A model generated the notes under the pieces. The model was given only the letters and a program-made list of their open reading frames with translations, had not been told where the DNA came from and did no database searches. A program made the translations under genes and the position numbers. A stretch of 64,000 nucleotides of DNA from Candidatus Saccharimonadota bacterium (GTDB lineage: Bacteria > Patescibacteriota > Saccharimonadia > Saccharimonadales > Saccharimonadaceae), in NCBI GenBank assembly GCA_017511645.1, contig JAFWJH010000001.1:1-64000 (forward strand), in the 5' to 3' direction. Positions within the stretch are counted from its first letter, which is position 1, and the number at the start of each line of letters is the position of its first letter. This document shows positions 11,130 to 62,296 of this stretch, piece by piece.

Positions 11130-11212
11130 AAAAATATACCCTTTCTCGGGAAAACCTCAGATATAGGCCCCTCTCCCGTATCCGCTGTCTTCCCTTTGTT
11201 AATTTTGTATTT

Positions 11213-12257: not shown

Positions 12258-12968
12258 ATGGAAGATCAAATTATCCTCATCGACAAACCAGCCGGTATTT
12301 CTAGTTTTGGTGTTGTTGCCAAAGTTCGCGGCAAACTAAAAGCCGAATTTGGCCACAAAGTCAAAGTTGGCCACACCGGCACTCTTGATCCCTTCGCTAC
12401 AGGGCTTTTGATTTTACTTTCTGGCAAAATGACCAAAAAATCCAATGATTTTCTAAAACTCGATAAAGTCTACGAAGCCACCATGAAGCTCGGCTATATT
12501 TCTACCACTGGAGACCCAGAGGGAGAGATTTTAATATATCCCAATCCGGGGACATTCGGAGGTTACGACCGAGAAGCAGGGCGCGAGCCCCGTAACGACG
12601 GGTGCGAGCGACCCGTCCCCGAATGGGGTATATTAAAATCCACTGTCAACGCTTTTGTTGGAAAAATATCCCAAACTCCTCCTCGCTTCAGCGCCATCAA
12701 AATCAACGGCCAACGTGCATACAAATTAGCCCGCAAAGGCGCAGATTTTGAGATCCCTAGCCGCGAAGTCGAGATCTATAGTATTGAAATATTAGATTAT
12801 CATTACCCAGAGCTTACTATTCGCTGTCACGTCTCATCTGGCACTTACATCCGCACTCTCGCCGAAGACATCGGCAAAGCCCTCGGTACCGGAGCCTACC
12901 TTACCGCTCTTCGCCGCTTACGAATAGGAAATTACGACATCAAAAACGCCACTAAACTTGTGTTATAA
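12258..12968 (+). CDS. truB: tRNA pseudouridine-55 synthase with an in-frame palindromic insertion
   Basis: 236 residues from the ATG at 12258 (7 nt after TATAAT). TruB makes pseudouridine 55 in the tRNA T-loop. The catalytic motif GHTGTLDPFATGLL (about 38-51) carries the essential Asp. Further motifs are KVYEATMKLG, TPPRFSAIKINGQRAY and RCHVSSGTYIRTLAEDIG. About 38 residues (91-128) come from a GC-rich palindromic DNA element placed between STTGDPEGEI and VNAFVGKI. It keeps the frame open and sits in a variable loop region of the family, so activity may be retained (inference). The stop overlaps the -10 box of the next gene. Confidence 0.92.
   Translation: MEDQIILIDKPAGISSFGVVAKVRGKLKAEFGHKVKVGHTGTLDPFATGLLILLSGKMTKKSNDFLKLDKVYEATMKLGYISTTGDPEGEILIYPNPGTFGGYDREAGREPRNDGCERPVPEWGILKSTVNAFVGKISQTPPRFSAIKINGQRAYKLARKGADFEIPSREVEIYSIEILDYHYPELTIRCHVSSGTYIRTLAEDIGKALGTGAYLTALRRLRIGNYDIKNATKLVL
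12527..12640. repeat. Palindromic element copy A, in frame inside truB
   Basis: 114 bp bounded by complementary arms of about 26 nt (12527-12553 and 12615-12640), differing at only a few positions. The GC-rich core contains mini-hairpins with stable loops: GGT-TACG-ACC, GGGC-GCGA-GCCC and CGGGT-GCGAGCG-ACCCG. The core matches copy C in the O-antigen-ligase-like gene closely (TTCGGAGGTTACGACCGAGAA and GAGCGACCCGTCCCCGAA are shared), while the outer arms do not match. No stop codon occurs in the truB frame. Confidence 0.85.
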
Positions 12969-60819: not shown

Positions 60820-62296
60820 ATAACGCCGGCAACAAGTATATATGTAGCACATTAGGTAACCCCGAGAAAAACAGCAGCGTAATAGCATACGCCACGATTA
60901 ATGTCGTCACCATCTCGTTTTGATAAACCGCCCGAACTATTAGCCCCACTGTCAAAATCAAAAGAGCCACACCGATAAATCCCGTCTCCAGCAACAAACT
61001 CGCATATTCATTTTGTACAATTTCTTTTGGAGCTGGCGACAGCTTATTTACATAAAGCGCCTGCCCCGCCCCCCCAATACCTACTCCAAACATCATAGTA
61101 GTAAAATCTTGTTTCCATACTTCCGCCGCAGCACCAGACAGTCTCAGCCTGGTATCAGTAGACTCCTCTACATAGCCGTCAAATACCGCCTCGCTTTTTT
61201 CATCATTGTCTACATTTTCCTCTGTTATTTCTGATACAAGCGCGTCCGTTTCTTCCGAAACTTTTTTCTCATCACCACCCCGAATGTCAATAATTCCAAG
61301 TGACAAATGGTTCAAAACCTTTGCTACGCCCGTACTATAATTATCGCTAGTTGGGCCAAACTCCGCCATCATTCCTTGCAAATTTAAAGTAAACAAAAAC
61401 GCCACTAAAATCACCGGCCACACCAACATCACTCTCCACTTTTTCGTTCGTACCACCATCATCGCCGTCATAAAAATCATCGACACCGCAAAAGCATATA
61501 TCGCCCCCCGCGAAAATGTCAAAAATATCGTTGCTACAAAAACAAAAAACATAAAGACGACTAATAACAGGTGACAATTAAAGATATTTGGCAATGGTAT
61601 TTTGAGGGGCTTTCGGAGGTTACGACCGAGAATGAGGGCGCGAACCCCGCGACGGCGGGCGTGAGCGACCCGTCCCCGAAAAGTACCATTGCAAATATCC
61701 TGCATTACCATCCAAGCACTTGTTATCGCTGGCGCGAGCAACAAATTGCCCATAAATTGTGGCTCTATCGCCCACCCATTCGGATGCGGAAACCCAAACA
61801 TCTGATACGTACATCCCGCACACACCAAACTCACCCCGCGCGGCACTCCGGCAATATCTAATATACATTGTAATAGACACCACCCACACGCCACCAACGC
61901 ACTCGCAAAAAACACTTTCCAAAACTTCTCTAAAAACCCAAACTCCGAAAATAGACTCCTTAAACTCCAAAACGCATACCCCGCAAAATACACCAGCCAA
62001 AGTATCCCCACCGTAAGTAGCCCCCTCAAACTATTCATAGACCACAGCACAGACAAACTCACAAACACAGGGAACAGCAGCCACAGCCATTTTCGCCAAA
62101 TACCTTTTAGTAGTTTCTTCTTCACCAAAATCCAAAACGCCAAGACATCAAAAATCACCAACCATATCAAAGGCAGCGATAGTTCAAAGTTCATCGACTC
62201 ACTTGCGCCCAGCGATATCACCGGCCAATAAGAAAAAAACAACACCGCCGGCAAAATATACACCAAAAATCTATAAACTTTAACGAGTTTTACCAC
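60782..62296 (-). CDS. O-antigen ligase/Wzy-like polysaccharide membrane protein with in-frame insertion
   Basis: 504 residues, about ten or more transmembrane helices and a long hydrophilic loop (about 315-390, acidic). The general layout and FLTFSRGAIYAF (Arg in a TFSRG motif) match the Wzy_C/O-antigen ligase family, which joins or polymerises lipid-linked polysaccharide. Residues about 200-238 are basic (RGRVAHARRRGVRALILGR) and encoded by the palindromic element. It overlaps the glycosyltransferase gene by 17 bp in an exopolysaccharide operon. Confidence 0.85.
   Translation of the reverse strand: MVKLVKVYRFLVYILPAVLFFSYWPVISLGASESMNFELSLPLIWLVIFDVLAFWILVKKKLLKGIWRKWLWLLFPVFVSLSVLWSMNSLRGLLTVGILWLVYFAGYAFWSLRSLFSEFGFLEKFWKVFFASALVACGWCLLQCILDIAGVPRGVSLVCAGCTYQMFGFPHPNGWAIEPQFMGNLLLAPAITSAWMVMQDICNGTFRGRVAHARRRGVRALILGRNLRKPLKIPLPNIFNCHLLLVVFMFFVFVATIFLTFSRGAIYAFAVSMIFMTAMMVVRTKKWRVMLVWPVILVAFLFTLNLQGMMAEFGPTSDNYSTGVAKVLNHLSLGIIDIRGGDEKKVSEETDALVSEITEENVDNDEKSEAVFDGYVEESTDTRLRLSGAAAEVWKQDFTTMMFGVGIGGAGQALYVNKLSPAPKEIVQNEYASLLLETGFIGVALLILTVGLIVRAVYQNEMVTTLIVAYAITLLFFSGLPNVLHIYLLPALFIALCGKSLYHK
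61583..61699. repeat. Palindromic element copy C, in frame inside the O-antigen-ligase-like gene
   Basis: Outer arms of about 25 nt: GATATTTGGCAATGGTATTTT from 61583 pairs with the complement of AAAAGTACCATTGCAAATATC ending at 61699. The core carries TTCGGAGGTTACGACCGAGAA (also in copy A), GGGC-GCGA and the GACGG...CCGTC hairpin. The element lies in the opposite orientation to its host gene compared with copy A in truB, and is still read through without a stop. Confidence 0.85.

Follow-up and report, generated by a model that had tools for sequence, protein, structure and literature searches.

The locus studied here raises the question of how a long palindrome comes to lie within the reading frame of a conserved protein gene, and whether it belongs to that gene or is one copy of an element that moves. 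The window, that is, the whole stretch of 64,000 nucleotides that was analysed (positions 1 to 64,000 of contig JAFWJH010000001.1 from a Candidatus Saccharimonadota bacterium), carries such a palindrome in frame within truB (12258..12968, plus strand). A covariance model built from 84 aligned copies, R1, matches the whole element at 12524..12642 on the plus strand with 111 bits (E 4.8e-27), and a genome-wide search places it at the same position.

The truB palindrome and its second copy in the window

The truB element (element 1) is about 119 nt long and consists of two arms of 24 nt each around a GC-rich core. The left arm (12527..12550, plus strand) and the right arm (12617..12640, plus strand) form inverted repeat I4 and are 88% complementary, while the core contains hairpin 1, TTCGGAGGTTACGACCGAGAA (12555..12575, plus strand), and hairpin 2, GGGCGCGAGCCCCGTAACGACGGGTGCGAGCGACCC (12579..12614, plus strand), which includes a GA/GA internal loop. 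Both hairpins were defined by RNAalifold on 84 copies, and the stem pairs of hairpin 1 have changed on both sides. The palindrome folds at -60.7 kcal/mol, compared with -33.4 +/- 3.5 for shuffled sequences (z -7.9), and its opposite strand gives a folding z of -6.8. Together with the R1 match, the arm complementarity and folding energy establish that the palindrome reported at 12527-12640 by the initial annotation is real. The truB frame is indeed unbroken, as had been claimed: it is open across the element, and the TruB_N profile (PF01509), which is split by the element, matches in two flanking pieces, 7-64 and then 77-149; the gene also contains TruB_C_2. An addition of about 38 residues, however, was an overestimate. 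The gain is in frame, but the stretch that separates GD(P/x)EG from FxG has 51 residues in the TruB of the window and 27-31 in typical uninterrupted TruB of the same genus, so the net gain is only about 21 residues and part of the arm length is native loop. The filled/empty comparison of truB also shows that the outer part of the left arm, which is otherwise locus-specific, overlaps the native codons GEI-x-x-Y. A structure model of TruB puts the insert, residues ~94-121, in a loop that joins a strand to a helix and is predicted with low confidence (pLDDT 45-67 for residues ~91-120).

The second copy in the window (element 2; 61580..61701, plus strand; R1 120 bits, E 2e-29) lies antisense in the Wzy_C / O-antigen ligase-like gene (PF04932; 60782..62296, minus strand), whose frame is also open through the copy, and forms direct repeat D2 with element 1. 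The near-identity of the two cores, already pointed out from the sequence, is borne out by an 87% match over 75 nt (61606-61680). So is the description of the outer arms as locus-specific and self-paired: the arms of the two elements are unrelated in sequence, and each pair is self-complementary.

Range, structure and coding behaviour of the family

Searches beyond the window, of the kind the initial annotation had proposed, show that the palindrome belongs to a large family. R1 finds 8 copies in the window's own genome, and members of the family in 59 of the 60 genomes of the genus, with up to 34 copies per ~0.7 Mb. Copies are absent or few in G033, G002 and G020 and abundant in G005, G048 and G053. 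Core DNA matches occur in 51 of these 60 genomes, and the same type of search returned no match in 40 genomes of the order that belong to other families. Across the order, 49 of 295 genomes are positive with R1, all from three genera (this genus and two sisters) of one family, and no other family gives a match. When the GTDB genome collection was scanned with a core pattern of 33 positions, it returned 73 stretches, every one titled Candidatus Saccharibacteria and nothing outside Saccharibacteria; wherever the title names a source, it is ruminant gut. The carriers of the family belong to one genus of Saccharibacteria from the ruminant gut and to two sister genera, and we found no earlier literature on such an element in Saccharibacteria or Patescibacteria. 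Carriage by phage is disfavoured, as two core patterns have no exact match in IMG/VR viral contigs, and so is a known RNA family, as an Rfam search at 7 loci gave no match above the gathering score at the element.

The conserved part of the element is a core of about 65 nt. Hairpins 1 and 2 make up this core together with an outer stem, GGG(G)/CCC(C), and GA/GA internal loops can be read straight from the sequence. RNAalifold on the 84 copies yields 27 pairs, 21 of which have changes on both sides, and the core stems of 214 copies are 97.8% Watson-Crick. The arms of different loci are unrelated, with an identity near random (0.49). Beyond about 26 nt from the core their complementarity is no higher than background, so that the length of the element is fixed though the sequence of its arms is free; the R1 match is 119-125 nt long in 197 of the 214 copies. 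Two other matches, L131:6989-7183 and L126:3702-3897, extend over 195-196 nt, well over the usual 121, which suggests that a second hairpin has been inserted inside the element.

Within protein genes the element behaves as coding sequence. The frame is kept at 94 of the 103 sites that are open on both sides, where about one third would be expected, and two of the six frames hold 66 of the 77 gene insertions among the first 106 copies. Genes with an in-frame copy include truB, tsaD, ileS, mnmA, alaS and pheT. The element persists in genes almost only where the frame is kept. We propose that it may survive there because its two commonest frames, PEVTTEDEGASPVTTGASDPS and DGSLAPVVTGLAPSSSVVTSG, would be stop-free, hydrophilic and placed in surface loops. 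A non-translated insert, skipped by bypass or cut out of the RNA, appears disfavoured by the frame keeping and the two-frame preference, as far as sequence can tell.

Arms of the site, cores of the genome

Comparison of orthologous sites, whose flanks are about 75% identical, reveals that their arms are related. Where arm pairs differ between orthologues, both sides have changed in compensation in 266 of 396 (67%), compared with the roughly 5% that independent change of the two sides would give. The arms belong to the site and co-evolve in place, and these compensated changes strongly support one of the two possibilities raised at the outset, that arms are under pressure to stay paired. The cores follow another pattern. 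Identical cores are found in 13 of 431 same-genome pairs and in 91 of 20234 between-genome pairs, that is, 6.9 times more often within a genome (p 2.6e-7). Such identical-core pairs within a genome have unrelated arms, whereas identical-core orthologues have arms that are 90% identical; likewise, two mnmA sites of one genome (G298) and two ileS sites of another (G331) share rare cores but not arms. Among non-identical cores the effect is modest, with a similarity of 0.767 within and 0.746 between genomes. Cores resemble each other within the genome, and arms within the site.

The core also flips. Opposite core orientations are seen in 78 of 245 orthologous pairs, and both orientations occur at 13 of the 24 multi-species sites. 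Opposite-core orthologues have arms more than 60% alike in 38% of cases, compared with 7.6% of random pairs, and arm asymmetries flip together with the core (23 vs 6, p 0.007). A given site can hold the core either way round between arms that are homologous.

That the element moves is shown by a double copy in tsaD and by empty sites. The tsaD gene of genome G016 holds two copies 672 bp apart that are identical over ~117 bp, arms included, except for one core mismatch; their flanks are unrelated and both are in frame. Empty orthologous sites are found for ileS, mnmA, alaS and a terminator-like hairpin loop, and at all four both arms are absent and the net insertion is 98-120 nt; across sites in general, net insertions vary from core-sized to whole-element-sized. 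In TruB, 30 genomes of the genus are uninterrupted and ~27 are interrupted at the same loop, by the element family in both orientations as well as by other inserts, and TsaD has a similar hot loop that likewise takes unrelated inserts. Clear recent transposition is limited to one case among ~205 copies. No target duplication is evident at the tsaD copies or at the empty sites, where the relatives compared are distant. With many genomic copies, empty sites and in-frame tolerance, the suggestion of a mobile coding palindromic family is supported, and none of the tests that the initial annotation had named against its own mobile-element reading overturned it.

Several local observations concern the choice of site. 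All three copies found in genome G016 (C14; 69531, 70203 and 78224) lie within 9 kb, which hints at local spread. An intergenic terminator-like hairpin (L123/L140/L131, the same site near window position 11163) has the element inserted in the host hairpin loop, a hint of an insertion preference for hairpin loops. The sequence of the empty ileS site (L105), GTGGATTC-T-GAATCCAC, is itself a perfect if short palindrome, either a target or a scar.

Mechanism and comparison with known elements

We regard the palindrome as probably a non-autonomous selfish insertion element of ~119-124 nt, shaped by template switching and by conversion of the core between copies. A DNA hairpin or cruciform would make the polymerase switch template; within a copy, the switch would recopy one arm onto the other, flip the core and sometimes extend the palindrome into host codons. 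Between copies, conversion would be confined to the core, the only shared stretch, and would homogenise the cores of each genome, while new copies would arise rarely, by a trans-acting factor or by replication itself. Studies of template switching between inverted repeats describe that it homogenises arms, inverts spacers and maintains hairpins by paired changes (PMC8604942, PMC8794818). Such switching could account for the co-evolution of arms at sites and the flipping of cores, and conversion limited to the homologous core could account for core sharing within the genome. Bursts of new copies acquiring new arms could also homogenise the cores, although several such sites are old.

A search of the 60 genus genomes for candidate enzyme families yielded no mobilising enzyme. 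Y1_Tnp is present in 2 of the 60 genomes and absent from 58, which rules out mobilisation of the REP/RAYT kind, and a TnpB profile search gave 0 of 60, which rules out an IS605/TnpB-type mobile RNA system. RVT_1 occurs in 39 of the 60, but its presence is not tied to copies: two genomes lack it, G018 (99% complete, 19 copies) and G036 (99%, 28 copies), so that a reverse transcriptase is not a requirement. Reverse transcriptases of ~390 aa are thus widespread in these reduced genomes.

A different reading gives the core strand a function of its own, as RNA or as single-stranded DNA in folded form, to which a protein acting in trans binds; the arms would need only to pair and would drift with compensation under selection, as in attC. 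Integron attC sites are recognised by structure, which is conserved while much of their sequence is free; unlike in attC, the conserved part of the Saccharibacteria element is its centre and not its ends, and the element does not lie beside cassettes. The strand bias of arm mismatches bears directly on this reading. Counted on the core strand, isolated arm mismatches show G.U:A.C of 109:42 overall, with 44:7 in copies antisense to the host gene, 29:9 outside genes and 31:25 in sense copies; the ratio is 55:15 (p 1.7e-6) in a subset chosen without the model, and since a strict recount on 106 copies is not significant, the bias rests on the larger set. The excess suggests a role for one particular strand, of fixed polarity. 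It is not predicted by plain arm-to-arm correction, and it weakens DNA correction alone without strand bias. Its direction, the same whatever the direction of the host gene, agrees with a functional core strand, as do the strongly conserved core loops, the covarying stems and the fixed arm length. In the core stems, however, G.U (0.5%) and A.C (0.4%) are both rare and equal, unlike in the tRNA stems of the same loci, where 52 of 646 pairs are G.U and none is A.C. As sense copies are close to unbiased, Rfam gives no match and the known single-strand transposases are wanting in nearly all of the genomes, we consider a functional core strand unlikely.

It is quite improbable that insertion brings the core only and that fold-back copying of flanking host DNA produces the arms in place, the mechanism offered at the outset as the other possibility. 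Part of it holds in two genes: the outer left arm of truB matches empty-site codons at 59%, against 33% in shuffles, with a net insertion that is about core-sized, and in both truB and pheT (the latter judged by eye) one arm has native host codons in its outermost 7-14 nt, and the opposite arm mirrors them. Locus-specific arms, and identical cores with unrelated arms in one genome, would also fit. The middle and inner arms, however, do not match host DNA, the empty sites of ileS, mnmA, alaS and the terminator lack both arms, and the tsaD pair took identical arms to two sites, which together rule out copying and inversion of host flank as a general rule. Very improbable, finally, is that the same permissive loops received the element again and again in independent events, that neither inversion nor conversion happened in place and that arm likeness reflects a target motif; unrelated inserts in the truB and tsaD loops and the two orientations at multi-species sites would suit it, but arms at a site are homologous over most of their length even with opposite cores, and their asymmetries follow the core. 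Beside the selfish insertion element that we prefer, we raise as a tentative possibility that the element has a split identity, in which a genome-shared, strand-specific structured core, serving as an RNA or single-stranded DNA substrate of a putative host-encoded mobiliser, would sit on complementary arms rewritten at each site and invert while being translated in essential proteins.

The closest parallel is found in the Rickettsia palindromic elements (RPEs) and their Wolbachia equivalents, palindromes of ~105-150 bp in many copies, intergenic or fused in frame in conserved protein genes, that form a long stem-loop (PMC2229807, PMC10969869). The Saccharibacteria element is similarly a multi-copy palindrome, of 119-125 nt and with as many as 34 copies in a genome, lying in frame in unrelated conserved protein genes, as the 94 of 103 sites that keep frame attest. 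It differs in its phylum, with a core pattern that matches only Saccharibacteria in the GTDB genome collection, and in its site-specific arms, genome-shared core, reading of both core orientations and flipping in place, none of which we found reported for RPEs in the reviews cited. Judged by such description the element works like RPEs, an analogy with which we claim no kinship by homology. Palindromic repeats with coding potential are also listed for the archaeon Methanocaldococcus jannaschii (Suyama 2005, as listed in PMC2229807), and resemble the present element as far as that description goes. MITEs such as ERIC, RUP and Correia/NEMIS share with the element their small size, palindromic form and lack of autonomy, and some of them contain reading frames. 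Their terminal inverted repeats are conserved and most have a duplicated target (PMC2229807), whereas the termini of the Saccharibacteria element are not conserved among copies. REP sequences are also structured palindromes in many copies, but at 20-40 bp (PMC3733652) they are shorter, and Y1_Tnp is missing from most of the genomes here. To call the element a new class of coding mobile element, as was proposed, is therefore too strong, since Rickettsia, Wolbachia and Methanocaldococcus were already known to have coding palindromes (PMC2229807); it is a previously undescribed palindromic family with unusual behaviour.

The family adds an independent case of coding palindromes, so far a curiosity of Rickettsia and Wolbachia, in reduced Patescibacteria genomes. 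Many genomes hold 8 to 34 copies, dozens of species carry the family, and filled, empty and flipped orthologous sites are numerous. This density makes it possible to follow a palindrome in protein genes through its life cycle, from insertion through arm-to-arm correction and spacer inversion to homogenisation between copies. The family may thereby offer a natural, replicated data set for testing in bacteria whether template switching creates and keeps up hairpins, as PMC8794818 and PMC8604942 propose. The essential enzymes TruB, TsaD, IleS and MnmA, judging from their genes, appear to tolerate repeated insertions of 20-40 residues in the same loops; for Rickettsia, a guanylate kinase has been assayed for activity with and without its insert. 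At the truB loop, an AT-rich insert of a different kind, ISKHGETFPKEKSSDSPDFYNISPLKNS..., is carried in frame by L148 and L155 (genomes G054 and G006) and has long complementary stretches nested in one another, and L145 (G035:C7) has an in-frame interruption of 80 residues. The DNA of the latter stretch folds into a very long nested palindrome, apparently of another family.
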